Positions 4,600 through 63,249 of a stretch of 64,000 nucleotides of DNA are shown in pieces. The translations under genes and the position numbers were made by a program. The stretch is from Rufibacter sp. LB8 (GTDB lineage: Bacteria; Bacteroidota; Bacteroidia; Cytophagales; Hymenobacteraceae): contig NZ_JADALJ010000001.1 in assembly GCF_014876185.1 (NCBI RefSeq), positions 2,771,501 through 2,835,500 on the forward strand, given 5' to 3'. The notes under the pieces were generated by a model. It did no database searches. It was not told the origin of the DNA and was given only the letters and a program-made list of their open reading frames with translations. Position 1 is the stretch's first letter. Each line of letters begins with the position of its first letter.

Positions 4600-4617
4600 G
4601 CCAACCTAACTAGTTTC

Positions 4618-4655
4618 CGTTTTCGGGCTCATTTATGGAAATGAAGGCAAAAACG
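4618..4655. repeat. dispersed palindrome copy 3
   Basis: Forward asymmetric form. An ATG inside the copy (4635) opens a spurious N-terminal extension for the following lipoprotein frame. Confidence 0.8.
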
Positions 4656-4697
4656 CATCTTCTGAAAAAGGATGTTCAACCTCTAACTTTTCACAAG

Positions 4698-5333: not shown

Positions 5334-5371
5334 TTCTCAGGTGCAGTCTTCATTTATCATATTTAGCCTCC

Positions 5372-5408
5372 CGTTTTCAGCCTCATTTCCCAAAACGAAG
5401 CCAAAAAC
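5372..5408. repeat. dispersed palindrome copy 4
   Basis: Forward asymmetric form between the two paralogous lipoprotein genes. It is translated in a spurious upstream extension of the next gene. Confidence 0.8.
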
Positions 5409-5433
5409 GCATCTGAACTTAGATTTTCTGCCT

Positions 5434-6093: not shown

Positions 6094-6102
6094 ACTAACC
6101 CC

Positions 6103-6128
6103 CGTTTTCGCCCTCATTTCCAAAAACG
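6103..6128. repeat. dispersed palindrome copy 5 (truncated)
   Basis: The left arm CGTTTTCGCCCTCATTTC joins directly to AAAAACG; about 12 bp of the right arm are missing. Confidence 0.6.
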
Positions 6129-6140
6129 CAGCTACTAAAA

Positions 6141-9300: not shown

Positions 9301-9351
9301 GTTCCTGTGAAAGAGAAAAAGAAGCCCGGCCCCAAAAAGAAAACCGAGTAG
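6304..9351 (+). CDS. uvrA: UvrA, excinuclease ABC subunit A
   Basis: A 1015-residue ATPase of nucleotide excision repair; UvrA dimers find DNA lesions and load UvrB. Two ABC modules are visible. The first Walker [10 protein letters not shown], is near residue 50 and the second, GVSGSGKSS, near residue 650. Signatures [12 protein letters not shown] and [12 protein letters not shown] and zinc-finger CxxC motifs (CPTCNG, CPECNG, CETCEG, CETCKG) are present. Family members are about 940 residues long; the excess is a C-terminal tail of roughly 60 residues with basic clusters ([14 protein letters not shown]) separated by an Ala/Thr/Glu stretch. The tail is probably disordered and may bind DNA. A dispersed palindrome begins right after the stop codon. 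Confidence 0.97.
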
Positions 9352-9389
9352 CGTTTTCGGGCTCGTTCCCAGAAATGAGCCCGAAAACG
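9352..9389. repeat. dispersed palindrome copy 6
   Basis: Nearly perfectly symmetric. It starts at the base after the uvrA TAG. Confidence 0.85.
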
Positions 9390-9406
9390 GAAAGTTTAGA
9401 AACAGA

Positions 9407-9893: not shown

Positions 9894-9934
9894 CCACCGG
9901 TTTCCTGGCACAGCCTGGAAAAGCTAGGGGGTTT

Positions 9935-9974
9935 CTGTTTTGGGGCTCATTTCTGGAAATGAGCCCCAAAACAG
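9935..9974. repeat. dispersed palindrome copy 7 (perfect)
   Basis: A perfect 40-bp inverted repeat with CTGTTTTGGGGCTCATTTC arms around a 2-nt spacer. It lies beside the terminator of the next minus-strand gene. Confidence 0.9.
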
Positions 9975-10008
9975 AAATCCCGATGCTATTACCAGCACCG
10001 GGATTTCT
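9973..10008 (-). terminator. hairpin downstream of the 10059-10382 gene
   Basis: AGAAATCCCG and CGGGATTTCT form a 10 bp stem, about 50 bp beyond the minus-strand stop. It abuts the perfect palindrome copy. Confidence 0.5.
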
Positions 10009-14259: not shown

Positions 14260-14303
14260 AAAACAGAAGCGGGTGCCTTGTACAAGGCACCCGCTTCTGT
14301 TTT
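14260..14303 (-). terminator. perfect 21-bp-stem terminator
   Basis: A 21-nt arm starting at 14260 pairs perfectly with 14283-14303 around a TA loop; both ends are A/T runs, so it can work in both directions. It serves the minus-strand gene ending at 14342. Its right arm overlaps the first bases of dispersed palindrome copy 8. Confidence 0.75.
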
Positions 14304-14335
14304 CGGGCTCATTTCTGGAAACGAGGCCAAAAACG
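14297..14335. repeat. dispersed palindrome copy 8
   Basis: Forward asymmetric form, partly merged with the preceding terminator. The minus-strand RNA folds with G-U pairs where the plus strand has C-A mismatches. Confidence 0.85.
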
Positions 14336-14341
14336 TAGTTT

Positions 14342-15000: not shown

Positions 15001-15058
15001 AAGCGGCAAAACGGTGATAGGTAAAGATACGAAACAGAAGCCAAACGCACCAGCCTTC

Positions 15059-15096
15059 CGTTTTCGGGCTCATTTCCAGGAATGAGCCCGAAAACG
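15059..15096. repeat. dispersed palindrome copy 9
   Basis: Symmetric form. It is followed directly by the AATTGTTGATTGGTAATTG module that accompanies several other copies. Confidence 0.88.
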
Positions 15097-15196
15097 GAAA
15101 ATTGTTGATTGGTAATTGTTGATTGATTTCTTAAATGTGGCAGTTGTTATGGGCAGATATTTTTTAAGCCAATTATTCCTTTTGGTGCGAAAATTA

Positions 15197-15365
15197 CACA
15201 CATTCCGTCCTCCTTTGAAGGGGGGTAGGGGGATGATAAGCCCCATTGACGCACGTACAGTTTTGGCTATGAAAAGAAGAATTATGCAGTCATAAATTTT
15301 TACTCAAAAGCTATCATCGGAAAAGCCATCATCCCCCTACCCCCTTCAAAGGGGGACGGAATGCG
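15197..15365. repeat. inverted-repeat element type D, copy 1 (about 169 bp)
   Basis: The left end ATTCCGTCCTCCTTTGAAGG continues to GGGGGATGATAAG and is answered by CATCATCCCCCTACCCCCTT plus CAAAGGGGGACGGAATGCG at the right. The arms are about 38 bp; the interior of about 87 bp is AT rich and has no ORF. The same architecture recurs at 53402-53561 with a different interior. Confidence 0.75.
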
Positions 15366-15390
15366 TGAACAATGCTTAAGTACCGGTATC

Positions 15391-15428
15391 CGTTTTCAGG
15401 CTCATTTCTGAAAACGGAGCCTAAAACG
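15391..15428. repeat. dispersed palindrome copy 10
   Basis: Nearly symmetric; it ends 16 bp before the stop codon of the hexosaminidase gene. Confidence 0.8.
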
Positions 15429-15443
15429 GAAAACGGAAATTCC

Positions 15444-17135: not shown

Positions 17136-17190
17136 CCTAAGCTGAATTGGTAACCTACTCGCTGTAAAGCTATTGCCAAGTGGCTTTTCC

Positions 17191-17228
17191 CGTTTTAGGG
17201 CTCATTTCTGGAAATGGAGGCAAAAACG
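17191..17228. repeat. dispersed palindrome copy 11
   Basis: Forward asymmetric form, 40 bp before the large inverted-repeat element. Confidence 0.85.
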
Positions 17229-17267
17229 GGAAATGACACTTCAATCAACTGTTGACTGCCATTACTA

Positions 17268-17604
17268 AACGCGGATTCTCCCCTTGAGGATTTCCCGAAC
17301 GAGAGTTAGAGGCAGCGAGCGAAGCTCTGCAGAAGTGTGTTTACAAAGGAGAATACGCATTTATGATCTGTACGGACAGGTCGCGACCTGTCCCACGCAT
17401 TCCTGATCCACGCATTTCTTTTGTGGGTGTTCGCTTTTTTCTTCGTGGCAAATAGATTGGTTAGGCCACCGTTCAGGACAGGTCGCGACCTGTCCCTACA
17501 ATCAGCAATGCGTAAATCAGCTAATGTAAACACCCCTCTGCAGAGCTTCGCTCGCTGCCTCTAACTCTCGTTCGGGCATTCCTCAAGGGGAGAATCCGCG
17601 TTTA
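17268..17604. repeat. MITE-like element with 78-bp terminal inverted repeats
   Basis: The left end (17268-17345, with CGGATTCTCCCCTTGAGG and GAGAGTTAGAGGCAGCGAGC) is the reverse complement of 17527-17604 with only about five differences. The 181-bp interior has no convincing ORF but carries two copies of the perfect palindrome GGACAGGTCGCGACCTGTCC at 17374-17393 and 17476-17495. A shorter relative with the same outer ends lies at 58050-58276. No target duplication is obvious. It looks like a non-autonomous mobile element. Confidence 0.75.
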
Positions 17605-19281: not shown

Positions 19282-19606
19282 GGGTCAGCAGAAGTTTTGT
19301 GTGTTAGCGAAGTAAAGATAAGAAGCCAATTGAAATAAGCTACTTTTTCGCTGCTAAAGCCGCCGCTGCCAATAAATCACGCCTTGCCAAAGGGTTCGGG
19401 TTCCCGAATTTCAGAAAGAGATATTTACGCGTTTTGGGCCTCATTTCTGGAAATGAGCCCCAAAACGGAAATGGAAGTTGGAGTTTGCCGTTTCCACACG
19501 CGCGAGACGCGAACGAGTGATGCTTTTTGGAAAGCCCAAAACAGCTTCTATGATTAACGAAAGGAAAGACAGCAGCCCGAATTGTGATTTTCCGCAAAAA
19601 CCTGAG
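19282..19606. other. non-coding gap of 325 bp
   Basis: No gene is seen. The only structure is dispersed palindrome copy 12, plus the upstream region of the M28 gene. Confidence 0.6.
19430..19467. repeat. dispersed palindrome copy 12
   Basis: Symmetric form with GTTTTGGGCCTCATTTC and GAAATGAGCCCCAAAAC arms. Confidence 0.87.
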
Positions 19607-21115: not shown

Positions 21116-21121
21116 TCTTTT

Positions 21122-21161
21122 CTGTTTTCGGGCTCATTTCTGAAAATGGGCCCGAAAACAG
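21122..21161. repeat. dispersed palindrome copy 13
   Basis: Symmetric form 6 bp after the hydratase stop codon, placed where a terminator would be. Confidence 0.87.
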
Positions 21162-21218
21162 AAAATCAAACATGGCTTCGAACGACTTTAACAATATAAT
21201 CTCTTAGCTACTGCATTC

Positions 21219-21941: not shown

Positions 21942-21951
21942 ATCCAATTCC

Positions 21952-21989
21952 CGTTTTGGGGCTGATTTCTGGAAATGAAGCCTAAAACG
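21952..21989. repeat. dispersed palindrome copy 14 (overlaps a stop codon)
   Basis: Symmetric form with GTTTTGGGGCTGATTTC. On the minus strand its right end encodes the last residues and the TAG of the PAP2-like gene. Confidence 0.85.
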
Positions 21990-22602
21990 GAAGTCCCCAC
22001 AAACTAATTCCCACCAGCAGCCCCAGCGCAAACCCCACGTAAATCTGCTTGGTGGAGTGCGCACCCAGAGACAACCGGGCCGTCATGACCGCCCCAGAAA
22101 TCACAATGAAGGCTACAATGGGGAAAACTAAAATGGGTTCAGGCAGCCAGCTGTGTAACAAAAGCAAAATACCCAGACTACCTCCCAGCCCTATGGAGTG
22201 GGCACTTATTTTCCAGAACTGGTTGATGACCAGCGTGGCGTAAACAGTGGCGGTAATCACGCCCATCACCAGAAAAAAGATGCGGTCAAAATAAGGTTGC
22301 CGGTAGAACACCGCGCTGGTCATGGTGAAACAGATAGCCGCCATCAGCAGGGGCCACCGGCGGTCAACCCTTGCGTCTAGGGTAAAAGTAGTCACCACGC
22401 CAGCCTTCTGCAGCAGGAACGTACCAAAACTGGGCAGCAGAAACGTGGTGATGAACACCAGCAGCAGCACCAGCCTTCGGGCGGGCATGGGCAGGGTAAC
22501 GGCCTCTGCCGGAAGGAAATATAAAATCAACGCAAACAGGTACGAAGGCAGCAGCAGCGGATGGAACACCACTGAAAGAACCATCGCGAGGCGGTTATTC
22601 AC
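21982..22602 (-). CDS. PAP2-like membrane protein
   Basis: A 206-residue protein with about six hydrophobic segments. The pair KISAHSIGLGGSLG and RLSLGAHSTKQIYVG matches the conserved His/Arg-containing blocks of PAP2-related membrane phosphatases, although the classical KxxxxxxRP motif is absent. It may act on lipid phosphates. The start is GTG at 22602, or ATG at 22584. The last codons (Pro-Phe-stop) lie inside dispersed palindrome copy 14, so the repeat supplies this gene's end. Confidence 0.75.
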   Translation of the reverse strand: MNNRLAMVLSVVFHPLLLPSYLFALILYFLPAEAVTLPMPARRLVLLLVFITTFLLPSFGTFLLQKAGVVTTFTLDARVDRRWPLLMAAICFTMTSAVFYRQPYFDRIFFLVMGVITATVYATLVINQFWKISAHSIGLGGSLGILLLLHSWLPEPILVFPIVAFIVISGAVMTARLSLGAHSTKQIYVGFALGLLVGISLWGLPF

Positions 22603-26034: not shown

Positions 26035-26070
26035 AACCGCTTCTCTCCTTCTATTGGGAGAGAAGCGGTT
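26035..26070 (+). terminator. asnS terminator
   Basis: AACCGCTTCTCTCC and GGAGAGAAGCGGTT make a perfect 14 bp stem followed by TTTTGTTTTT. It lies about 80 bp after the stop. Confidence 0.85.
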
Positions 26071-26072
26071 TT

Positions 26073-26110
26073 TGTTTTTGGGCTCAAAACCGGAAATGAT
26101 GCCAAAAACG
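26073..26110. repeat. dispersed palindrome copy 15 (diverged)
   Basis: TGTTTTTGGGCTC is kept, but the centre reads AAAACCGGAAATGATG. It starts inside the T run of the asnS terminator. Confidence 0.65.
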
Positions 26111-26232
26111 CAATTTCATGACTTAAAAAAGATTGAATTGAAACGAAAAAATATTTTTTCGGTATAAATATATAAATTCTAAAAATCATTCTATATTTAC
26201 GCACCAGACAACCACACTCCAATCTAACTGAT

Positions 26233-26673
26233 ATGAAAAGATTTTTTACCGCCTTTACCGTAGTGTTGGCACTAGCCGTTGGAAGCGCCCATGCCACTTC
26301 TACCTCTAGCGTAAGCACGTCTATCCTGAAAGAGGATGGTGGTGCTAAAAAAGCAGCTGCCAAAGAGAAAGCAAAAGCCAAAAAACTGGCGCTGAAAGAG
26401 AAAGCGAAAGCCAAGAAGATTGCCCTTAAAGAAAAAGAGAAAGCTAAGAAATTGGCCCTGAAAGAAAAGGAAAGAGCCAGAATAGCCGCCGAAGACGCCA
26501 GATATGAGGCCTTAGACCAAGCCCTCATGGAAAAAGAGGACGCCAAAAAACAAGCTGCCAAAGAGAAGGCCGCTGCTTTGAAAGAAAAAGAGAAAGCCAA
26601 GAAACTTGCTCTGAAAGAAAAAGAAATGGCCGCCAAAGCTAAATCCTCTGAAAAGAAAAACGCTGAAGATTAG
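26233..26673 (+). CDS. secreted Lys/Glu/Ala-rich repeat protein
   Basis: A 146-residue protein. A signal peptide (MKRFFTAFTVVLALAVGSAHA) is followed by a Ser/Thr segment. From about residue 36 to the end it consists almost entirely of the words KEKAKAKKLALKEK and KKIALKEKEKAKK, broken once by ARIAAEDARYEALDQALMEKED. This predicts a long charged single helix or coiled coil exported from the cytoplasm. At the DNA level the repeats are imperfect 18-24 bp tandem units. I recognise no family; the antisense frame (26031-26636) is open only because of the repeat. It has a clear terminator. Confidence 0.75.
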   Translation: MKRFFTAFTVVLALAVGSAHATSTSSVSTSILKEDGGAKKAAAKEKAKAKKLALKEKAKAKKIALKEKEKAKKLALKEKERARIAAEDARYEALDQALMEKEDAKKQAAKEKAAALKEKEKAKKLALKEKEMAAKAKSSEKKNAED

Positions 26674-26700: not shown

Positions 26701-26732
26701 AGAAAGAGCCCGCATTGCTGCGGGCTCTTTCT
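26701..26732 (+). terminator. terminator of the repeat-protein gene
   Basis: AGAAAGAGCCCGCA and TGCGGGCTCTTTCT make a perfect 14 bp stem with a TTGC loop. It runs straight into dispersed palindrome copy 16. Confidence 0.85.
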
Positions 26733-26770
26733 GTTTTAGGGCTCATTTCTGGAAATGAAGCCAAAAACAG
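26731..26770. repeat. dispersed palindrome copy 16
   Basis: Forward asymmetric form; its first two bases are the last two of the preceding terminator stem. Confidence 0.87.
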
Positions 26771-26887
26771 AAACTACTTATCTCCTCTGTCCTACACTTC
26801 ATCCACCTTCTTCCACAGTTCATCTCCTTTAAATTTCAGACGCGGTTTTGGCGGGGCACCTTTGCTCAGAACCTAACCAAACCCGCT

Positions 26888-29041: not shown

Positions 29042-29112
29042 GGTGCTAATTTTTTAATGTGTTAGCGTGCTACTCTCCTTAAACAATCCTCAATAAGCAA
29101 TTACCAATTTTC

Positions 29113-29150
29113 CGTTTTCGGGCTCATTTCCGGAAACGGAGCCAAAAACG
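29113..29150. repeat. dispersed palindrome copy 17
   Basis: Forward asymmetric form between two plus-strand genes, preceded by the AATAAGCAATTACCAATT module. Confidence 0.87.
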
Positions 29151-29172
29151 TCAAACCCTAAAAACCATTCAA

Positions 29173-29805: not shown

Positions 29806-30151
29806 CCTTGGTTTACTGGAAACATAAAACTCACCCCTCCCAGGTGGGAGTTATCTGGAATACGTGGAGACAAGGCAGTGCCTGGTCTCTACAGGTTGCG
29901 TTTTCGGCTTCATTTCTGGAAATGGAGCCGAAAACGGATATCCAAATTCCCTCCTTGAAGGGAAATGGAATACCAAGAAAGACGTTCAAAACTCGTGCTG
30001 ATAACTCCCCTCCTGGGAGGGGTTGGGGTGGGTTACTTTCCAGGACTGAAAAAACACTTTTCTGCGCTTCACCTAAAATCCAACCAATTTTCCTGCCGCC
30101 CTTACAAAGCACAAAGGCAGTTTTTAGCCCTTAAATCCTTACCTTTTCGCC
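29806..30151. other. repeat-filled gap of 346 bp
   Basis: No gene is seen. The gap holds CACCCCTCCCAGGTGGGAG (29831), a GAGACAAGGCAGTGCCTGG word (29868-29886, repeated near 47561), dispersed palindrome copy 18 and the CTCCCCTCCTGGGAGGGG arm (30006-30034). Confidence 0.6.
29899..29936. repeat. dispersed palindrome copy 18
   Basis: Symmetric-like with GTTTTCGGCTTCATTTC and GAAATGGAGCCGAAAAC arms. Confidence 0.85.
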
Positions 30152-31201: not shown

Positions 31202-31209
31202 CCAAAAGC

Positions 31210-31247
31210 CGTTTTCGGGCTCATTTCCAGAAACGAAGCCAAAAACG
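31210..31247. repeat. dispersed palindrome copy 19
   Basis: Forward asymmetric form sitting between the kinase and its regulator gene, so it would be inside a shared mRNA. Confidence 0.87.
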
Positions 31248-31292
31248 GAAATCCTATTTCTGACAACGAATCACTAAAAACGAATCACCGCT

Positions 31293-32084: not shown

Positions 32085-32467
32085 ACTTTTTCTGTTTTCG
32101 GCTCTATTTCAGGAAATGAGCCCGAAAACGAAAAAGTTCAGCACCAGGGCTGGTTTCACCTACCAGGCAAAATGTTAATTTCCTTCCCGGCCACCTGATT
32201 TCCTGCTTTAATTTAGGCTGAAGTCAATGTCCCATCTCCCCTCTTTTTATTTCAATTCACCCGCGATGGATACCGCCAAGGTTTCCCTCTTTTTTAGACA
32301 TTGTGCTATATCTAAAAATTGCATATTTCTTACTTTACACCCATCATTCTCCTGGACAAATACTTAAAACTAGGTATTGGCTGAATGCTTAAATCCTCGG
32401 ACCTTTGTAATGAGAGAGGCATCTTTTCGTTTCTTTCTCCTTCACTGCCTTACCACTACTAATGTAT
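32085..32467. other. non-coding gap of 383 bp
   Basis: No gene is seen. Apart from dispersed palindrome copy 20, this is AT-rich upstream sequence of the large lipoprotein gene. Near-consensus boxes (GACCTTTG at about 32399) are present but not convincing. Confidence 0.5.
32092..32130. repeat. dispersed palindrome copy 20
   Basis: Symmetric-like, 8 bp after the regulator stop codon. Confidence 0.85.
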
Positions 32468-34648: not shown

Positions 34649-34682
34649 AAACACCGGTTACAGCAGGAATTTCTCTAGCAGC

Positions 34683-34722
34683 CTGTTTTTGGCTCCATTT
34701 CCAGAAATGAGCCCGAAAACAG
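34683..34722. repeat. dispersed palindrome copy 21
   Basis: Reverse asymmetric form with TGTTTTTGGCTCCATTTC on the left and GAAATGAGCCCGAAAACAG on the right. Confidence 0.87.
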
Positions 34723-34837
34723 AAAAAGCACTGTTGATATTCTAGGCTTCTCTCAGTTTCAAACTAACCGAAAAACAGGTCCAAAAGTAGCAAGATTGCT
34801 ATGCTTCCCGTATTTTTCTTGCCTAAACACCAGCACC

Positions 34838-35290: not shown

Positions 35291-35329
35291 TTTCTGTTAT
35301 CCAGCAGGCCACGCAAAAGATTACAGCAG

Positions 35330-35367
35330 CGTTTTTGGGCTCATTTCCGTAAACCAAGCCAAAAACA
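35330..35367. repeat. dispersed palindrome copy 22
   Basis: Forward asymmetric form (GTTTTTGGGCTCATTTC with a diverged right arm), 10 bp before the next ATG. Confidence 0.78.
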
Positions 35368-35377
35368 GTTCTGCCGT

Positions 35378-36007: not shown

Positions 36008-36080
36008 TGCTGGACAGCGTTCTTGAAATCTCAATAAATATTTTTCATCGAATCAAAGAAACAGCAACACACCATTCCTC

Positions 36081-36118
36081 CGTTTTAGGGCTCATTTCTG
36101 GAAATGAAGCCAAAAACG
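36081..36118. repeat. dispersed palindrome copy 23
   Basis: Forward asymmetric form between the convergent lipoprotein and histidine kinase genes. Confidence 0.87.
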
Positions 36119-36127
36119 GAAACGGTC

Positions 36128-39028: not shown

Positions 39029-39078
39029 GTAGGCATCCGTTCTTTCTGCGGGCAGCTTGTGGCGCTGCCTTCTCCTTC

Positions 39079-39116
39079 CGTTTTTGGCCTCGTTTTCAGA
39101 AATGAGCCCTAAAACG
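39079..39116. repeat. dispersed palindrome copy 24
   Basis: Reverse asymmetric form between two minus-strand genes. Confidence 0.85.
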
Positions 39117-39125
39117 GCTGCGCCC

Positions 39126-40478
39126 TTACGCGCTTAAATGTGTTTTCAGGAATTCCTGTACCTGGGGCTTGTCATAGTCTGCCTCTGTCTCAATGTGGCC
39201 CATGAGTTGCCGCATGATTTCCTCTTGCCGCTGCCCGTTGGCCAGTGCCTGCGCATACGGTAAATCTGGGGAAAAGGTGACCATGGAATACAGCGGCAGC
39301 CAGGCGTCTGGGTATTGGCCCGTGATCTTGGCCTCAATCTTCTTCTGGAGCAGAAACCGCGGGTCGGCCACTTTGTCTCGCATCTCAATGAAGTTGTAGA
39401 CGGCCAGGTCGGCAATGGCGTCTGTGTTGGGTTTCCTGACTTCCTGAAAGGTGTTAAAAATAGTTTCCCAGTCGTTTTGGTGGGTTTCTAAGAGGCCGCG
39501 CAGCACGGTGCAGTCTTCAAACCCGGCGTTCATGCCCTGGCCGTAGAACGGCACAATGGCGTGGGCGGCATCGCCTAGGAGCAGAATTTTGCCTTTGTGC
39601 TGCCACGGAAAACATTTCACGGTGACCAGAGAGCCGGTGGGGTTCTCAAAGAATTCCTGGGCCAGTTCAGGCATGAGCGCCACGGCGTCTGGGAAGACTT
39701 CTTCAAAGAAACTAGTCACCTGCGCGGGCGTCTGCAGGCTCTTGAACGAAGGCTCGCCCTCAAACGGGAAGAACAAGGTGCAAGTGAAGGAGCCGTCTAT
39801 GTTGGGCAGCGCAATCATCATGTACTGCCCGCGGGGCCAGATGTGCAGCGCGTTCTTCTCCAGTTGCCAGGTGCCGTCTGCCGCAGGCGGAATGGTGAGT
39901 TCTTTGTACCCGTAGTTTAAATACGATTGCTCAAAGTTGAAGCGGTCTGTTTTCTGCAAAGAAAGCCGCACCATGGAATACGCACCGTCGGCGGCAAAAA
40001 TCACGTCTGGCGTAATCTGGTGCTCTTGTTGGCTGGCCACGTTCAGCATGGTCACGCGGTTGGTGGGCACGTCTACCTCCAGCACCTGCTGCTCAAAGTT
40101 AAGCGAGATGTTGGGCTGGGCCTCGGCTAAATTCAGCAGCGCGCGGTTAAGCCCCGCCCGTGACACTGAGTAAATGGCCTGCCCCGCCTGCCCGTACGGC
40201 TGAAACGACAAGTTGCCCTGCCCGTCATGCATCACGCGGCGGTACATGGGCATGGCTACTTTCTTGATGTCTTCAGAAATGCCAATGGTTTCCAGGGCGC
40301 GCCAGCCGCGGTCACTTAACGCCAGGTTAATGGACCGGCCACTGAACAAATCAGCCCGCCTGAGGTCTGGCCTGCGTTCATAGACCTGCACCCCGTAGCC
40401 TTGTTTGGCCAGGTACAGTGACAACAGACAGCCCACCAGGCCGCCGCCCATCACGCAGAGTTGGGGAGTTTTTTCCAT
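39126..40478 (-). CDS. kmo: kynurenine 3-monooxygenase
   Basis: A 450-residue FAD monooxygenase that hydroxylates L-kynurenine to 3-hydroxykynurenine with NADPH and oxygen. The Rossmann motif VMGGGLVGCLLSLYLAKQGY is at residues 9-28. FADGAYSMVRLSLQKTDRFN lies in the middle, and the FAD ribose motif LLGDAAHAIVPFYGQGMNAG near residue 290. ATG 40478 is chosen (MEKTPQLCVMGGG); the longer frame to 40520 adds 14 unlikely residues. It opens the kynurenine catabolic neighbourhood and is divergent from ogt. Length and motifs match bacterial KMO closely. Confidence 0.95.
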   Translation of the reverse strand: MEKTPQLCVMGGGLVGCLLSLYLAKQGYGVQVYERRPDLRRADLFSGRSINLALSDRGWRALETIGISEDIKKVAMPMYRRVMHDGQGNLSFQPYGQAGQAIYSVSRAGLNRALLNLAEAQPNISLNFEQQVLEVDVPTNRVTMLNVASQQEHQITPDVIFAADGAYSMVRLSLQKTDRFNFEQSYLNYGYKELTIPPAADGTWQLEKNALHIWPRGQYMMIALPNIDGSFTCTLFFPFEGEPSFKSLQTPAQVTSFFEEVFPDAVALMPELAQEFFENPTGSLVTVKCFPWQHKGKILLLGDAAHAIVPFYGQGMNAGFEDCTVLRGLLETHQNDWETIFNTFQEVRKPNTDAIADLAVYNFIEMRDKVADPRFLLQKKIEAKITGQYPDAWLPLYSMVTFSPDLPYAQALANGQRQEEIMRQLMGHIETEADYDKPQVQEFLKTHLSA

Positions 40479-40583
40479 AGAGTAAGGGTACAGCACCAGC
40501 CTTTCATAGAATCTGCCCAATTTTTACGGCTATCTTCGGCAACATGAGGTAAACTTGGTTAAATTTCGTTTAAAATCCGCACC

Positions 40584-41087
40584 ATGGCCCCGGCAATCTC
40601 GCGCTTCACCCATTTTTTAGACAGTCCGCTGGGCACCGTGCAACTCACCGGCACCCAGGAATTCCTGTTTTCGTGCTCATTTACAGAAATGGAGCCCGAA
40701 ACGGAAACCGACCCTGCGCCCCAGGCGCTGCTCCAAGCCGCCACGCAGTTGAATGAATATTTCGCCGGAATAAGACTGACGTTTGACTTACCGCTCCAGC
40801 CGCAGGGCACCGCATTTCAGCAACAAGTGTGGCACGCCTTGCAAGAAATTCCGGCGGGCAGAACAGACCACTATTTAAATCTTGCCAAACGGATGGGGAA
40901 CGCCAAGGCCGTACGCGCGGTGGGCGTGGCCAACGGCGCCAACCCATGGTTGCTGGTGGTGCCCTGCCACCGCATAATTGGCGCCTCCGGCGATTTGGTA
41001 GGATACGCCGGCGGACTCTGGCGCAAGAAATGGTTACTGGACCATGAAGCCAAACTGGCGGGCGTGTACCAGACCTCGTTGTTTTAA
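40584..41087 (+). CDS. ogt: methylated-DNA-protein cysteine methyltransferase, with an in-frame repeat
   Basis: A 167-residue suicide repair enzyme that removes alkyl groups from O6-alkylguanine. The C-terminal domain has the DNA-binding and active-site blocks GTAFQQQVWHALQEIPAGRT, RAVGVANGANPW and VVPCHRIIG (acceptor Cys in PCHR), then GDLVGYAGGLWRKKWLL. The N-terminal domain is short. Residues about 28-41 (LFSCSFTEMEPETE) are encoded by a near-consensus copy of the dispersed palindrome (40665-40704) that is one base shorter than usual, keeping the frame open. The active site is intact, so the protein is probably functional. It converges on an alkB-like gene, suggesting an alkylation-repair locus. 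Confidence 0.93.
   Translation: MAPAISRFTHFLDSPLGTVQLTGTQEFLFSCSFTEMEPETETDPAPQALLQAATQLNEYFAGIRLTFDLPLQPQGTAFQQQVWHALQEIPAGRTDHYLNLAKRMGNAKAVRAVGVANGANPWLLVVPCHRIIGASGDLVGYAGGLWRKKWLLDHEAKLAGVYQTSLF
40665..40704. repeat. dispersed palindrome copy 25, inside ogt
   Basis: CTGTTTTCGTGCTCATTTAC and GAAATGGAGCCCGAAACGG differ from the consensus at about three positions, one of them a missing A. The copy lies wholly within the ogt reading frame. Confidence 0.88.
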
Positions 41088-41121
41088 AAAGTAAGAAAGC
41101 TAATTAAGAATTGCCGATGTC

Positions 41122-41159
41122 CGTTTTTGCCCTCATTCCTGAAAATGAGCCCCAAAACA
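41122..41159. repeat. dispersed palindrome copy 26
   Basis: Reverse asymmetric form between the convergent ogt and alkB-like genes. Confidence 0.82.
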
Positions 41160-43081: not shown

Positions 43082-43135
43082 GAACGAAGGCAACGGTACA
43101 GTACAAATACCTACTAACTTATTCTTCGCCTTTTT

Positions 43136-43173
43136 TGTTTTAGCCCCCATTTACAGAAAAGAGCCCAAAAACG
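43136..43173. repeat. dispersed palindrome copy 27
   Basis: A diverged copy; on the minus strand an ATG inside it (43150) opens a false extension of the antiporter gene. Confidence 0.7.
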
Positions 43174-43221
43174 GAATCTTGTTAATTGCTGATTGTTACT
43201 TGATTTCATCAAAGGGGGACG

Positions 43222-43466
43222 AAATGCGGCATCTATAATGCGTGGTTTCGCTGCCGGGCAGCGAGGGTAGGCTGGAGACTACCCAGCATCATTAGGCGCG
43301 AGTAACGCTGCGCTTAACACTCGCGCCAGCGTATTAAATTGTTGATTGGTAATTGTTCATTGCTGAAAAACATTGGCTCAGATAACAACCTGCCATAAAC
43401 AATCAGCAATTACCAATCAACAATTCTCTGTTTTAGGCTCCATTTCTGAAAATGAGGCCGAAAACG
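43222..43466. repeat. composite repeat, partial copy C
   Basis: It carries, in the same order as 55380-55612, a GCGAGGGTAG...CTACCC hairpin, a CGCTGCGCTTAACACTCGCG word, TTGTTGATTG/TTGTTCATTG and CAATCAACAATT modules, and finally a dispersed palindrome. The first third of the full composite is missing. Confidence 0.7.
43428..43466. repeat. dispersed palindrome copy 28
   Basis: Symmetric-like form that ends composite repeat C, 11 bp before the kynU stop. Confidence 0.85.
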
Positions 43467-43477
43467 GGAAATTGGAT

Positions 43478-44749: not shown

Positions 44750-44853
44750 AGAAGCTTGGTTAAGTAACGGGTGATTGCGTTGGCGAATTTACCTAACCGG
44801 CGTTAGACTTCCATACGCCTTTACCTGAAACTCTACAGGTTGGCGTTTGTTTC

Positions 44854-44892
44854 CGTTTTTGGGCTCGTTTTGGGAAATGGGGGTGGAAAACG
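44854..44892. repeat. dispersed palindrome copy 29 (diverged)
   Basis: CGTTTTTGGGCTCGTTTT is followed by a G-rich, degenerate right arm. Confidence 0.6.
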
Positions 44893-44941
44893 GGAGGGAC
44901 AGCTTAGATAGGCTGATTAAATTAACTAGATAGAGTATCCC

Positions 44942-46970: not shown

Positions 46971-47008
46971 GATAAGGCGCCTTCCTATTCCCCGCTAAAG
47001 CTCCAACC

Positions 47009-47046
47009 CGTTTTTGGCTTCATTTCCATAAATGAGCCTGAAAACG
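47009..47046. repeat. dispersed palindrome copy 30
   Basis: Reverse asymmetric form in the divergent upstream region. Confidence 0.85.
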
Positions 47047-47114
47047 GCGCAGCCACGCTTGCTATCTAGCCCCCCGTTCTTTACTATTGTGCCGAAATTT
47101 CCACCTAACCGCGC

Positions 47115-49676: not shown

Positions 49677-49683
49677 TATTCTC

Positions 49684-49721
49684 CGTTTTCGGGCTCGTTT
49701 CCAGAAACGGAGCCAAAAACG
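49684..49721. repeat. dispersed palindrome copy 31
   Basis: Forward asymmetric form between the yebC-like gene stop and its terminator. Confidence 0.87.
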
Positions 49722-49731
49722 GAAACCAACC

Positions 49732-52270: not shown

Positions 52271-52348
52271 AGCGGTAGAATTTGATGTAGAACAGCTGTG
52301 ACAGCCGCTGCCCAAGGTACGAAACCCGCCGCATAAAAGATAGCCTCC

Positions 52349-52386
52349 CGTTTTCGGCCTCAGTTCTGGAAATGAAGCCGAAAACG
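52349..52386. repeat. dispersed palindrome copy 32
   Basis: Symmetric-like form in the divergent gap between the dioxygenase and SDR genes. Confidence 0.85.
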
Positions 52387-52518
52387 GAAATCCTGCGGGT
52401 AAACAATCGTATTTCTAATTCGCCCGCAAGGTCCTTTCAGGATGACAAAAAAGTAAGACCAACCAATTCATTATATTATTTCCTATTTTGACCACTCAAG
52501 ACTCAGAACTCCCCTATT

Positions 52519-53307: not shown

Positions 53308-53349
53308 TAGAGTCCTGAGTCTTGGGTTCTGAGTCCTGAGTTTGGAATG

Positions 53350-53387
53350 CGTTTTCGGACTCATTTCTAATAACGAGGCCAAAAACT
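53350..53387. repeat. dispersed palindrome copy 33 (diverged)
   Basis: Forward asymmetric form with CTAATA replacing the centre. Confidence 0.7.
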
Positions 53388-53401: not shown

Positions 53402-53561
53402 GCGCATTCCGTCCCCCTTTGAAGGGGGTAGGGGGATGATAAGGTCTTCCGAAAAAGCTGGGTTCTAAATCAAAGGCAATTAATTAGGTTTTCGGGAATG
53501 CCAATTATCCAAAAGAGTAATCATCCCCCTACCCCCTTCAAAGGGGGACGGAATGCGTGGA
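53402..53561. repeat. inverted-repeat element type D, copy 2 (about 160 bp)
   Basis: GCATTCCGTCCCCCTTTGAA with GGGGGATGATAAGG at the left and ATCATCCCCCTACCCCCTTC with GGGGGACGGAATGCG at the right. The arms match copy 1 (15197-15365), while the interior does not. Confidence 0.75.
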
Positions 53562-53652: not shown

Positions 53653-55095
53653 ATGCTGCACCTCCAGAACTTCCTCAACGGCACCTTCTCCCCTCCCATT
53701 TCTGGCAACTACCTGCCCAACATCAAGCCAGCCACGGGCGAGGTCTTCTCCCAGATTCCTGATTCTGAGGAACAGGATGTGCAGGCAGCAGTAGAAGCAG
53801 CCAAGGCGGCGTTTCCGGCGTGGGCAGGCTTGCCGGCGGAGAAGCGGGGACGGTATCTGGTGCGGCTGTCGGAGTTGATTGACCAGAACTTGGAACGGCT
53901 GGCTGAGGCAGAAACCATGGATAACGGTAAACCGCTTTCCCTGGCCAAGACCGTGGATATTCCTAGGGCCAGCAGCAATATGCATTTCTTCGGGACGGGC
54001 ATTCAGCATTTTGCATCTGAAGCACACATGATGGAAGGTGTGGCGGTGAATTACACTGTAAGAAAACCGCTGGGCGTGGTAGCCTGCATTTCGCCGTGGA
54101 ACTTACCGCTCTACCTGTTCACCTGGAAGATTGCCCCCGCCCTGGCCGCCGGAAACTGCGTGGTCGCCAAACCTTCAGAAATCACGCCCTACACCGCCCA
54201 CCTGCTGGCTGAATTATGTGTGGAGGCCGAGTTACCCGCGGGGGTGCTGAACATTGTGCACGGCACCGGCCCCAAAGTAGGCGCGGCCTTGGTAGAGCAC
54301 CCCGACGTGAAAGCCATCTCGTTCACCGGCGGCACTCAAACCGGCAAAACCATCGCGCGCACGGCGGCCCCTATGTTCAAAAAACTGTCTCTGGAACTGG
54401 GCGGCAAGAACGCCACGGTCATCTTCGCCGACTGTGATTTTGAGAAAACGGTGGCGGGCGCGGTGCAGGCCGCCTTCGCCAACCAAGGCCAAATCTGCCT
54501 CTGCGGCTCGCGCATTCTGGTGGAGCGCTCCCTGTATGATAAGTTTAAAGAAGCTTTTTTACAACGCGTACAAACCTTAACCTTAGGCGACCCGCTGCAA
54601 CCTGATACCAAAATGGGTGCCTTGGTCTCAGAAGCACATCTTCAAAAAGTGTTGTCTTACATAGAACTAGCCAAAGAAGAAGGCGGCACCCTGCTCACCG
54701 GCGGGGAACGCGTACACTTGGAAGGCCGCTGCGCCAACGGCTATTTCCTGCAGCCCACCGTCTTTGAGAACCTGCCCCACAACTGCCGCACCAACACAGA
54801 GGAAATCTTCGGACCAGTAGTCACGCTGCAACCGTTTGACACCGAGGAAGAAGCCCTCGCCTACGCCAACATCACCGAATACGGCCTCGCTGCCTCCGTC
54901 TGGACCCAAGATGTCACCCGCGCGCACCGGGTCTCGCATGCCCTGCAAGCCGGCATTGTCTGGGTGAACACGTGGCTCCTGCGTGATTTGCGCACACCGT
55001 TTGGCGGCACCAAGCAAAGCGGCGTGGGCCGCGAAGGCGGTTGGGAAGCGCTTCGGTTTTTCACGGAGCAGCAAAATGTGTGTATTAAAATTTGA
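53653..55095 (+). CDS. aldehyde dehydrogenase, probable 2-aminomuconate 6-semialdehyde dehydrogenase
   Basis: A 480-residue NAD-dependent enzyme. Cofactor and catalytic blocks: SPWNLPLYLFTWKIAPALAA, SFTGGTQTGKTIARTAAP, KLSLELGGKNATVIF (Glu of the active site) and NQGQICLCGSRILVE (catalytic Cys in GQICLC). The sequence is of the aminomuconate/hydroxymuconate semialdehyde dehydrogenase type. Together with ACMSD and HAAO, it converts 2-aminomuconate semialdehyde to 2-aminomuconate. It closes the kynurenine region on the right. Confidence 0.92.
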   Translation: MLHLQNFLNGTFSPPISGNYLPNIKPATGEVFSQIPDSEEQDVQAAVEAAKAAFPAWAGLPAEKRGRYLVRLSELIDQNLERLAEAETMDNGKPLSLAKTVDIPRASSNMHFFGTGIQHFASEAHMMEGVAVNYTVRKPLGVVACISPWNLPLYLFTWKIAPALAAGNCVVAKPSEITPYTAHLLAELCVEAELPAGVLNIVHGTGPKVGAALVEHPDVKAISFTGGTQTGKTIARTAAPMFKKLSLELGGKNATVIFADCDFEKTVAGAVQAAFANQGQICLCGSRILVERSLYDKFKEAFLQRVQTLTLGDPLQPDTKMGALVSEAHLQKVLSYIELAKEEGGTLLTGGERVHLEGRCANGYFLQPTVFENLPHNCRTNTEEIFGPVVTLQPFDTEEEALAYANITEYGLAASVWTQDVTRAHRVSHALQAGIVWVNTWLLRDLRTPFGGTKQSGVGREGGWEALRFFTEQQNVCIKI

Positions 55096-55173
55096 AGATT
55101 TGAAAATGTGGAGATTTGAAGATTTGGAAAGGTGAAGATTTGGAAAGGTGAAGATTTGAAAATGTGGAGATTG
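55096..55173. repeat. GAAGATTTG(G/A)AAA tandem repeat
   Basis: About five imperfect 16-18 bp units such as TTTGAAGATTTGGAAAGG directly after the dehydrogenase stop. It is AT-rich low-complexity DNA. Confidence 0.7.
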
Positions 55174-55211
55174 CGTTTTCGGCTCCATTTCCAGAAACGA
55201 AGCCAAAAACG
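55174..55211. repeat. dispersed palindrome copy 34
   Basis: Forward asymmetric form directly after the tandem repeat. Confidence 0.87.
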
Positions 55212-55300
55212 CATTAACGCAGTCCCTTCTCCCACTGGGAGAAGGTTAGGATGAGGGACTATTCTCACTTTTCCTCCCGCAATCTCGCTCCCTCACTCCT

Positions 55301-55612
55301 CGCTCTTCCGGATTTCTAATCCGGAAGCTATCTGTCGGGGATTTCTAATCCCCGCGCCTGGCAAGGCGCAAATAAGGTAGTAAATTTAGTAGATATACGT
55401 GGGTTCGCTGCTAGCGCAGCGAGGGTAGTCTGGAGACTACCCGTTATCCATTAGACACGAGTGACCGCTGCGCTCAACACTCGCGCCAGCGGATTAATTG
55501 ATAATTGCTGATTGTTCATCGTTGATGATTTCCAATTCAAAAAACAATCAACAATAAGCAATCAGCAATTTCCCCGTTTTCGGCTTCATTTCCAGAAACG
55601 AAGCCAAAAACG
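55301..55612 (+). repeat. composite repeat, full copy A (about 310 bp)
   Basis: Ordered modules: TCCGGATTTCTAATCCGGA palindrome, CGGGGATTTCTAATCCCCG palindrome, GCCTGGCAAGGC, a GCGAGGGTAG...CTACCC hairpin, CGCTGCGCTCAACACTCGCG, TTGTTCAT/CAATCAACAA modules, and a dispersed palindrome at the end. The reverse complement of the whole series, colinear, lies at 59376-59690. Confidence 0.8.
55575..55612. repeat. dispersed palindrome copy 35
   Basis: Forward asymmetric form closing composite repeat A. Read through, it gives a false N-terminal extension of the DPP-IV gene. Confidence 0.87.
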
Positions 55613-55685
55613 AACGTTCTTTCGGCGGGAGCCAATCTTAAAATATTTGCCTAAATTTAAGGCTACGAACTCAACAAACAGATAC

Positions 55686-57904: not shown

Positions 57905-57940
57905 AAAAGCGCCAGTTCTTTTAGGAGAGCTGGCGCTTTT
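57905..57940 (+). terminator. DPP-IV terminator
   Basis: AAAAGCGCCAG and CTGGCGCTTTT form an 11 bp stem, 21 bp after the stop. It abuts palindrome copy 36. Confidence 0.8.
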
Positions 57941-57941
57941 G

Positions 57942-57980
57942 CGTTTTTGGCTTCGTTTTCAGAAATGAGCCTGAAAACAG
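57942..57980. repeat. dispersed palindrome copy 36
   Basis: Reverse asymmetric form directly after the terminator. Confidence 0.85.
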
Positions 57981-57984
57981 GAAA

Positions 57985-58021: not shown

Positions 58022-58049
58022 TATGTGTTCCATTTAAAATAGCGGCAGC

Positions 58050-58276
58050 TAAAAGCGGATTCTCCCCTTGGGGATTGCACTAACGAAAGTTTGCAGAAAC
58101 TTGCGATGCTTTAGAAAAGGCATACGCATTTCGTCCCCCTTTGAAGGGGGACGAAATGCGTCAAATCAGGAATGCGTGCGGGCGCATGCGATACGCCCGC
58201 ACTACAGAATCTACAAATTCTCTCTCCTGTGTAAACACCCCTCTGCGCTCCCCTCAAGGGGAGAATCTGCGTTTAT
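58050..58276. repeat. short relative of the 17268-17604 element
   Basis: Outer ends AGCGGATTCTCCCCTTGGGG and CCTCAAGGGGAGAATCTGCG are inverted repeats like those of the larger element. The middle holds a perfect palindrome with CGCATTTCGTCCCCC and GGGGGACGAAATGCG arms (58126-58161) and a GCGGGCG...CGCCCGC hairpin. Confidence 0.65.
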
Positions 58277-58315
58277 CTGTTTTCAGCTCCGTTTCCAAAT
58301 TAGAGCCCAAAAACG
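58277..58315. repeat. dispersed palindrome copy 37 (diverged)
   Basis: CTGTTTTCAGCTCCGTTTC with a diverged right arm, next to the TACTTGCTACC word. Confidence 0.7.
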
Positions 58316-58348
58316 GAGCCCGTCTTGCTACTTGCTACCTGATACTTG

Positions 58349-59336: not shown

Positions 59337-59375
59337 CTACGTTACCGGTTGATTTTCAGCTATGGGTTTGAATTT

Positions 59376-59414
59376 CTGTTTTTGGCTTCGTTTCTGGAAA
59401 GGAGCACGAAAACG
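59376..59414. repeat. dispersed palindrome copy 38 (diverged)
   Basis: Reverse asymmetric form with GGAGCACGAAAACGG at the right; it ends composite repeat B. Confidence 0.75.
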
Positions 59415-59690
59415 GGTGAATGGTTGATTGTTTCTTGTTGATTGTTATTTGAGATAAAGCCCTGTAACAATGAACAACCCCCAATCAATAATTAATCTGC
59501 TGGCGCAAGTGTTTAGCGCAGCGGTCACGCGTGTCTGTGGATGATGGGTAGTCTCCTGACTTCCCTCGCTGTAAAGCAGTGAAACCACGCATTGCTACTT
59601 TTTGTGGTAACCAACTTGCGCCTTGCCAGGCGCGGGGATTGGAAATCCCCGACAGCGTACTTCCGGATTAGAAATCCTGAAGAGCAAGGG
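59376..59690 (-). repeat. composite repeat, full copy B (inverted)
   Basis: Read on the minus strand it carries the same modules in the same order as copy A (55301-55612). Examples are TCAGGATTTCTAATCCGGAA, GGGGATTTCCAATCCCC, GCGCCTGGCAAGGCGCAA, GACCGCTGCGCTAAACACTT and the closing dispersed palindrome. The pair flanks the DPP-IV and Sua5 genes as inverted repeats about 4 kb apart. Confidence 0.78.
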
Positions 59691-59797
59691 ACTCCAAACA
59701 TCCATCGGCAAGAGTTTGGAGACTCGCGCCAGAAAAAGAAAATCCGCATCCCCTCACCCTAACCCTCTCCCAGGGGGAGAGGGAATTTTGGCTTATG

Positions 59798-59836
59798 CGT
59801 TTTTGGCCTCGTTTCTGGAAATGAGCCTAAAAACAG
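59798..59836. repeat. dispersed palindrome copy 39
   Basis: Reverse asymmetric form downstream of the cysteine desulfurase gene. Confidence 0.85.
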
Positions 59837-59907
59837 AAATCCCCGCCGGGTTGGGCAGGGATTTCAAAAATATTATCGCCTAGAAACGAATTACTGAAAA
59901 TTAACCG

Positions 59908-61155: not shown

Positions 61156-61198
61156 CTTTTCGTGCAAGTACTTCCTTATATAATATGAAGTAATTTTC

Positions 61199-61237
61199 CG
61201 TTTTCGGGCTCAATTCTGGAAACGAGCCCGAAAACAG
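61199..61237. repeat. dispersed palindrome copy 40
   Basis: Symmetric form between the glmM stop and the cysteine desulfurase start. Confidence 0.87.
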
Positions 61238-61245
61238 AAAATGCT

Positions 61246-62640: not shown

Positions 62641-62924
62641 GTATTGCTATTTATTGAATGTGTAAAAGTAGTAAAACCTGGAGGATTAATTGCAACGCAC
62701 GCGCCGACTGCCCGGCAACTGCTGTATACTAGTATTTAAATAAGCCATAGAAAGGTGTTGGTATCTCAAAGGAAACTACCCGCCTTCTGGTTCCTTCACT
62801 CTGGAAATTTCTGATTTGTCTTCTGGCACGCTCACTTTATAGAACACAACCACGCATTGGTAAAATGCATACGCAACCGCCGGCCCAGGGTAAGGCCTTG
62901 TCTGGAAAATATTTCTGCCTTTTC

Positions 62925-62962
62925 CGTTTTCGGCTTCATTTCCAGAAACGAGGCCAAAAACG
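62925..62962. repeat. dispersed palindrome copy 41
   Basis: Forward asymmetric form in the divergent glmM/mazG gap. Confidence 0.87.
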
Positions 62963-63249
62963 CCACCACAAACCCAGCAGTGCCTGTTTTGGCGCATCTG
63001 CGCTAAGCGTCTCAAAAATAATTTATTTTTTTTCTGCCCGGTTTATGGAATTGGGAGGCCCTGGGCATCTACTTCTAAAAGGCCCCACGGTGGGGCGGCA
63101 ACCGGGACGCTGTCTCTACCTGCGGTCATGAACGCAGCGGCGCAGCAAGGCTCCCAACGCAGGCCGCCCAGTAAGTTTAGGACAGTTTGTTTGTTGTTAC
63201 CAATTCATTAAGAAATGATGTTTTACTGATTAAATGCTAACATTCCGTT

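Follow-up and report, generated by a model that had tools for sequence, protein, structure and literature searches.

The ogt gene and its palindrome

The window analyzed here is a stretch of 64,000 nucleotides (G000:C1:2771501-2835500) of a two-contig Rufibacter genome of 4.75 Mb. On its forward strand an open reading frame of 167 amino acids (40584-41087) with the Pfam domains PF02870 and PF01035 encodes the O6-methylguanine-DNA methyltransferase Ogt. The initial annotation had pointed to a palindrome copy translated in frame inside this gene. We could confirm this with a profile for which 27 copies of the window, but not the one in ogt, were used: the match at 40662-40707, with a 38-bp register at 40666-40703 (+), has an E of 4.1e-10 in the window and a score of 34.9 bits. 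With model R1, which is based on 32 copies and again omits ogt, the score was 49.3 bits; R1 was used as a profile only, its RNAalifold structure pairing the left arm with the middle and not arm with arm. The ogt palindrome is a true member of a dispersed family and not a chance resemblance.

Codons 28-41 (40665-40706), which cover the site, read LFSCSFTEMEPETE. The copy had been described as differing from the consensus at about three positions; it is indeed close to the consensus, but the count against the degenerate consensus is 4 mismatches in 38 when compared by eye. A missing A, which was thought to keep the frame, is balanced by an additional G a few bases earlier, so that the ogt copy has full length. 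Since the 13 orthologs of the genus have the same length there, the frame was not rescued by a deletion in this copy. The catalytic block is intact as claimed, P127-C128-H129-R130 being invariant in sets of 6 and 27 sequences. As had been proposed, the position of the segment was modelled: in an AlphaFold2 model of Ogt (27 sequences, mean pLDDT 88.9, the five models ranging from 67 to 89) residues 28-33 of the site form the third strand and residues 34-46 the loop preceding helix 47-60, and the catalytic Cys128 lies far away in the chain. Directly 3' of ogt there is a further dispersed site (41116-41159, 37.6 bits), which is present in two and missing in six of eight relatives.

A family dispersed over the chromosome

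With the profile from 27 window copies 41 places in the window were kept as sites. Apart from the sites taken up below with the syntenic gaps, those above 50 bits lie at 9931-9978 (53.3 bits), 14292-14337 (54.1), 15053-15103 (54.7), 15384-15433 (50.1), 17185-17233 (50.7), 19426-19472 (52.1), 21118-21165 (52.4), 21945-21993 (51.6), 26726-26773 (54.8), 29894-29941 (51.4), 34681-34726 (51.5), 49679-49725 (53.4), 59795-59840 (50.2), 61193-61241 (53.5) and 62920-62964 (52.0). Scores between 35 and 50 bits were obtained, among others, at 899-942 (45.0 bits), 4612-4659 (48.8), 5366-5413 (43.5), 9349-9395 (49.3), 26067-26114 (38.9), 32088-32135 (44.0), 43131-43178 (35.6), 43423-43471 (48.2), 47007-47048 (44.5), 55171-55214 (46.0), 55570-55613 (49.4), 57938-57984 (49.6) and 59372-59418 (39.0). 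The copies at 44850-44896 (26.6 bits), 53348-53386 (29.5) and 58274-58320 (29.0) are degenerate, the one at 6100-6134 (28.1) is partial and the one at 1836-1875 (16.6) is weak.

A sample of 464 kb, consisting of the window and 20 evenly spaced stretches, yielded 205 copies of at least 20 bits, and 228 copies of at least 18 bits with a refined model. In the 20 chromosome stretches alone (400 kb) there are 187 copies; scaled up to the 4.59-Mb chromosome this makes about 2,100 sites. In contrast, only 3 sites were found in 100 kb of the second replicon (G000:C2, 155 kb), which may be a plasmid gained from a site-free host.

The family is characteristic of the genus. R1 matches all 16 genus genomes with at least 20 matches each among no more than 150 scored candidates, whereas among 13 whole genomes of other genera one has a single weak match, whose 33.6 bits fall short of the 49.3 bits that ogt reaches. 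Five other genera gave no match of at least 18 bits over 400 kb, and the best score among 78 named non-Rufibacter loci of other Bacteroidota (488 kb) is 8.0 bits. Viral contigs contain no perfect sites of either of the two dialects described below. In the open-access PMC papers searched we found no earlier description of such repeats in Rufibacter.

Genes were taken as long open reading frames rather than from a gene finder, and the 32 copies inside such frames include false frames and wrong starts. Among the 216 placeable copies (12 at stretch ends were omitted) 184 are intergenic: 98 lie between tandem genes, 54 between convergent genes (37 expected) and 32 between divergent genes (48 expected). 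In the tandem gaps 68 of the 98 sites are nearer to the upstream stop. The spacing of the sites is random with a CV of 1.08, and a regular spacing was rejected on this basis.

Anatomy of the site

For the anatomy we used the 206 copies that fall into an ungapped 38-bp register, 22 out-of-register copies of the 228 being dropped. The site is two-fold symmetric and, with weaker T-rich positions just outside the register, about 44 bp long overall. It consists of two inverted half-sites, in G000 roughly TTTCYGTTTTNGGSYTCRTTTYY, each with about 30 bits of information summed over positions and with T tracts at positions -3 to -1, 3-6 and 15-17. In sequence 178 of the 206 copies are distinct; 81 fit the degenerate 38-mer consensus perfectly and 65 with one mismatch. 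Of the 206 copies 176 have CA or TG as their central dinucleotide and only 17 have CG or TA, that is, the centre of the site avoids self-complementarity.

The arms of a copy differ at 3.58 of 18 pairs, compared with 3.52 +/- 0.08 when the right arms are re-dealt among the 206 copies. The arms vary independently and therefore the hairpin is not what is conserved; each half-site follows the motif largely by itself. Mild covariation is seen at 4 of 19 pairs, namely 1-38, 2-37, 3-36 and 7-32 (z 4.4, 2.8, 5.0 and 3.4), and inner pairs, for example 11-28, 14-25, 18-21 and 19-20, are anticorrelated. The nearest-neighbour identity among the copies is 35.98/38, slightly above the 35.68 +/- 0.04 expected with swapped arms, so that a little copying is possible.

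The excess of sites in convergent gaps and their closeness to stops in tandem gaps would suit a transcription terminator or RNA hairpin whose copies overlap genes by chance. An intrinsic terminator has a G+C-rich hairpin followed by a T run; the Rufibacter site, however, lacks an overall covariation of its arms, and its flanks are A-rich reading outward from either arm, without a T run. The concordance of GU/CA changes (0.578 against 0.538 +/- 0.020) points to an RNA hairpin weakly at best, Rfam gave no match in the window, and copies are conserved in the middle of genes. We regard a terminator as very improbable.

The ogt site in related genomes

A clear ogt ortholog is found in 14 of the 16 genus genomes, while G003 and G011 gave distant matches only. 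For the relatives we used a second model made from 115 copies in random stretches of G013, G006 and G009 that are free of the five genes traced below. In all 13 relatives the ogt gene carries the site at the same codons and the alignment over the segment is gapless. These copies score 3.0-26.0 bits with the G000 model and 18.1-38.7 bits with the relatives' model, and the G000 copy in turn prefers the dialect of its own genome (34.9 against 19.2 bits). The ogt genes of other genera lack the site in 16 of 16 cases (0-2.7 bits), which speaks for the non-coincidence of the match as it was put in the initial annotation, and differ by -2 to +2 residues at the segment. Three ogt genes of genus g4 also align gaplessly over it, and the Ogt of g4 shares the residues S..FTE. 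As the site stands at the same codons in 14 of 14 genus orthologs and is absent in other genera, it was most likely already present in the ogt gene of the genus ancestor and has been kept since.

Copies in other genes

The family is, as had been claimed, not limited to non-coding DNA. If only Pfam-supported genes with a copy away from the gene ends are counted, the 464-kb sample contains seven in which an internal copy is read in frame. Five of them were traced in the relatives: besides ogt a class I/II aminotransferase (AMT), a CorC/HlyC transporter (CorC), a DinB-FGE enzyme which we take to be EgtB-like (EgtB) and an outer-membrane beta-barrel protein (OMP); a glycosyltransferase (L059) and a pseudouridine synthase (L054) were left out. 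Five of the seven copies are read in the frame giving ..VFGLISENEPEN.. or a near variant, the copy in the pseudouridine synthase is in the same frame and degenerate, and ogt uses another frame.

In the relatives, the stretch encoded by the site is found at the corresponding alignment position of AMT, CorC, EgtB and OMP. Scores of at least 18 bits with the relatives' model were reached in 13/13 relatives for ogt, 11/15 for AMT, 15/15 for CorC, 10/15 for EgtB and 10/15 for OMP. The copies short of this score are eroded; seven have less than 10 bits, in AMT and EgtB of G001 and G015 and in OMP of G001, G003 and G012, and the EgtB-like gene of G010 has a site score of zero. The latter gene (L114) is divergent with 55% identity and has no site. 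The EgtB-like gene of G011 (L113/L115) was matched as two overlapping pieces, one of them with a stop.

For the uptake signal sequences (USS) a non-insertional origin was shown from coding copies that align without gaps (PMC1626085), and we applied the same gap test here. In the comparison with other genera, which covered ogt, CorC and AMT, CorC is 3 residues shorter and AMT 4 residues longer, not about 13 residues longer. The four additional residues indicate that an indel took part in AMT. In no tested case was a unit of about 40 nt seen as a clean addition.

Four relatives, G015, G001, G004 and G010, are poor in sites (0.7-1.75 per 10 kb), and G015, G001 and G004 have on average the weakest coding copies. 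It looks as if the site system were decaying or lost in these four genomes. Over the genomes the Spearman correlation between site density and coding-site strength is 0.47 with p 0.08, which is a trend only.

Two dialects of the site

The 15 relatives share, with variation, the motif ..GGSCTGTTTTC-nn-GAAAACAGSCC.., the consensus for G001, G004, G008, G010 and G015 being derived from 6-7 copies each. In G000 the dialect is ..GGGCTCATTTC-nn-GAAATGAGCCC.. instead. At position 14, 415 of the 452 half-sites of G000 carry a purine, while the 15 relatives pooled have T in 408 of 532 (purine 91, C 33). At the sites in ogt, AMT, CorC and EgtB this position is a purine in 8 of 8 half-sites of G000 and in 17 of 116 of the relatives. 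The five coding copies of G000 (ogt first) score 34.9, 51.8, 47.5, 44.9 and 51.9 bits with their own model and 19.2, 29.0, 34.3, 32.4 and 33.2 bits with the relatives' model. Conversely the relatives' model fits better in 13/13 relatives for ogt, 15/15 for AMT, 15/15 for CorC, 14/15 for EgtB and 14/15 for OMP; the exception in EgtB has a score of zero with both models and the one in OMP is G012 with 7.8 against 5.8 bits.

In a tree of ogt, AMT and CorC calculated without the site columns G000 groups with G011 and G008 (support 0.93), and this group together with others is split from G006, G009, G013 and the outgroup at 0.88. G000 is thus nested within the genus and the dialect change is best placed on the G000 lineage. 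Going by the aligned sequences, this change came with parallel amino-acid changes in the site-containing proteins: counted from the alignment, the I of the G000 residues LISEN is F in 10/15 relatives in AMT and in 15/15 in CorC, and the N is K in 13/15 and 12/15, respectively.

Conservation of position and constraint on the DNA

The window is syntenic in eight relatives. Gaps with a site in G000 have a site in the relative in 70 of 124 cases, gaps without one in 6 of 49. This corresponds to an odds ratio of 9.3 (p 6e-8) over 173 gap-by-genome comparisons, which are non-independent and confounded by gap length and shared ancestry. Examples of matches in the same gap are the sites at 29107-29154 (55.3 bits; three relatives shown, 25.4-45.6 bits), 31209-31252 (54.7 bits; three shown, 24.5-40.1 bits), 35329-35370 (41.8 bits; five shown, 13.9-27.3 bits), 36076-36122 between convergent genes (57.1 bits; five of the six relatives shown have 15.3-48.7 bits and one 2.3) and 52343-52391 between divergent genes (55.1 bits; seven shown, 11.7-51.2 bits). 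Just past the stop of the gene at 39126-40520 (-) a site of 50.0 bits lies at 39074-39118 in a gap of 97 bp; in G000 and in 7 of 8 relatives (13.1-47.5 bits) the match ends 8-12 bp from this gene.

Within the five genes, codons for the same amino acid are identical among the relatives at a fraction of 0.69-0.85 in the site, compared with 0.455-0.525 elsewhere. Windows of equal size reach the codon conservation of the site in 0/135 (ogt), 5/349, 0/384, 4/383 and 4/412 cases; the EgtB loci L113 and L114 were excluded here and in the next comparison. An explanation by mere residue composition was rejected: measured against what identical residues show elsewhere in the gene, the excess of the site is attained in 0/149 (ogt), 9/351, 0/386, 2/388 and 5/417 windows, fractions which are not probabilities as the windows overlap. 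In each of the five genes the amino-acid identity is lower in the site than it is on average outside it; in ogt and OMP it is higher than in the immediate flanks. Synonymous conservation together with a lower amino-acid identity is what a constraint at the DNA level predicts. For the coding sites the DNA itself is under constraint, over and above the needs of the protein.

These data also bear on the reading that native Ogt codons resemble the palindrome by coincidence, for which one could adduce the gapless alignment to the Ogt of g4 and the shared residues S..FTE. It is contradicted by the score of 34.9 bits, as other Bacteroidota loci (488 kb) do not exceed 8.0, by the fit of the relatives' copies to their own dialect and by the synonymous conservation in ogt, where no window reaches the value of the site. 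We consider a coincidence extremely improbable.

Insertion or evolution in place

The initial annotation had likened the ogt copy to the Rickettsia palindromic elements (RPE) and expected the alignment of relatives to show an insertion or replacement in only some of them. RPE are palindromes found in frame in several unrelated open reading frames, in tolerant loops, and they form an extra segment that is absent from the orthologs of sister species. The Rufibacter palindrome is likewise in frame in several unrelated genes. In contrast to RPE, it has no added segment in the tested cases, its arms are not kept complementary and the same site is present in sister species. All 14 Rufibacter ogt genes found carry it, and the likeness is not borne out. 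Proteins with RPE are listed in PMC2635572.

REP sequences are described as carrying a GTAG or CGTC tag at one end (PMC3733652) and REPIN hairpins as showing compensatory changes (PMC3116915). Compared with these accounts the Rufibacter family is similar in being palindromic and extragenic, with about 2,000 copies, located downstream of genes and occasionally intragenic. It differs in that neither the consensus nor the flanks have a GTAG or CGTC tag, in that no overall compensatory change is seen between the arms of the 206 copies, and in that the positions are kept across the genus while the dialect changes. Matches to PF01797 (Y1_Tnp), taken as the sign of a RAYT-type gene, occur in 15 of 16 genus genomes; the site-rich G013 has none at E 1e-3. 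Around the 6 PF01797-matching genes of G000 there are 12 sites in 19.4 kb, i.e., 6.2 per 10 kb against 4.9 overall. A RAYT/REP origin is unsupported by the tag and compensatory-change results.

More generally, a mobile palindrome of the RPE, REP or MITE type could have been inserted into ogt and tolerated there. The high copy number, the preference for extragenic places and 3' ends (68 of the 98 tandem sites nearer to the upstream stop), the in-frame copies in several genes and the existence of some identical copies would agree with it. At the genus scale, however, an insertion into ogt is contradicted by the site in all 14 orthologs found: they show no difference in presence or absence, and there is no change of length with respect to g4. 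Moreover, the arms do not covary overall, the positions are kept while the dialect changes, and G013 has 4.2 sites per 10 kb yet no Y1_Tnp match. We regard an insertion as very improbable. Copies that keep their places while changing dialect fit a recognition site that has evolved in place and not a mobile palindrome that was inserted.

A putative recognition site

Vertically inherited positions, largely independent half-sites, a dialect change in place and synonymous constraint together argue for recognition by a trans-acting factor. We think it probable that the palindrome in ogt belongs to a set of about 2,100 recognition sites which are inherited vertically and evolve in place together with a putative binding protein. 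A symmetric DNA-binding factor would recognize the sites of about 44 bp, and selection or a recombination drive would keep them matched to the factor by point substitutions in place. In the G000 lineage the preference of the factor would have changed, whereupon the sites moved chromosome-wide, genes included, from CTGTTTTC to CTCATTTC. Inside genes the DNA would dictate 12-14 residues of a tolerant loop, in Ogt those of strand 28-33 and the next loop.

Several observations sit less easily with a recognition site. About 30 bits per half-site are far more than a regulator needs, and the site is longer than DUS and USS. The nearest-neighbour identity a little above expectation would allow for some copying, and the pairs 1-38, 2-37, 3-36 and 7-32 covary mildly. 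AMT has its four extra residues and coding copies are eroded in some relatives. The conservation of gaps is confounded and the site following ogt is missing in most relatives compared, and the correlation of density with coding-site strength is weak.

By analogy, the closest known behaviour would be that of DNA uptake sequences. For the DUS, PMC3630211 describes dialects between related species and intragenic copies in permissive regions, and inverted pairs of USS or DUS between genes are mentioned in PMC1626085 and PMC3630211. Against these accounts of the Neisseriaceae DUS and the Pasteurellaceae USS, the Rufibacter site agrees in having more than 1,000 copies, dialects in related species and intragenic copies in tolerant stretches. 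It agrees also in an origin by substitution, ogt and CorC having no added segment and AMT, with +4 residues, agreeing in part only, and in having more perfect than singly mismatched copies (81 against 65 of the 206, with the degenerate consensus and the 22 out-of-register copies dropped). Unlike DUS and USS it is symmetric, about 44 bp long, mostly intergenic and found in Bacteroidota.

The sites could serve as an uptake signal that labels self DNA in natural transformation; biased import together with allelic recombination would drive each of them in place, intragenic ones included, to the current dialect. Copy number, dialects, in-place origin and the strong consensus match the USS/DUS pattern, and the scarcity of sites on the second replicon points in the same direction. 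The symmetry and length of the site speak against it. Known uptake sequences (DUS, USS) are much shorter than 44 bp. One library search revealed no DUS-like system in Bacteroidota. We regard an uptake signal as possible, though less likely than not.

The main alternative use to uptake is organization of the nucleoid or chromosome, where a dimeric or wrapping protein would bind the sites, with their T-rich tracts about one helical turn apart, and shape or insulate the chromosome. Two-fold symmetry, independent half-sites with T tracts in each half, the chromosome bias, the intergenic preference and the random spacing (CV 1.08) are in line with such a role. The consensus is however stronger than relaxed binding sites would give, and sites of about 60 bits, twice the half-site sum, are unusual for nucleoid-type proteins. 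We consider this use rather unlikely.

To take the recognition site further, the family may represent an undescribed genome-wide code in which one protein reads about 2,000 symmetric sites of 44 bp and in which a shift of its preference rewrote the sites in place and gave unrelated proteins the same replacements (LFSEK to LISEN in AMT and the CorC-type transporter) unrelated to protein function. This extended proposal we put forward tentatively, as slightly short of an even chance. The sites would offer a case, replicated by nature, of residues in several conserved enzymes being set by a DNA signal and not by protein function, one lineage having switched the signal at sites chromosome-wide and 15 sister species serving as controls. 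The question whether dispersed repeats are copied or evolve in place under recognition becomes directly testable, and a novel sequence-specific DNA-binding protein is predicted in Bacteroidota. Segments of this kind should not be taken for insertions or for functional motifs of Ogt.

Other repeats in the window

A second intergenic repeat family (..CATTCCGTCCCCCTTTGAAGGGGG..) occurs at 15201-15231, 15321-15367, 53405-53435, 53513-53559 and 58116-58162, and copies of it 38 kb apart are up to 94% identical. The sequences 17265-17335 and 58049-58119 form a direct repeat of 71 nt, 75% identical and 41 kb apart. At 26338-26664 there is a coding tandem repeat of an imperfect 33-bp unit rich in Lys, Ala and Glu. 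A short A+T-rich tandem repeat with a period of 8 bp at 55088-55172 adjoins a dispersed site.
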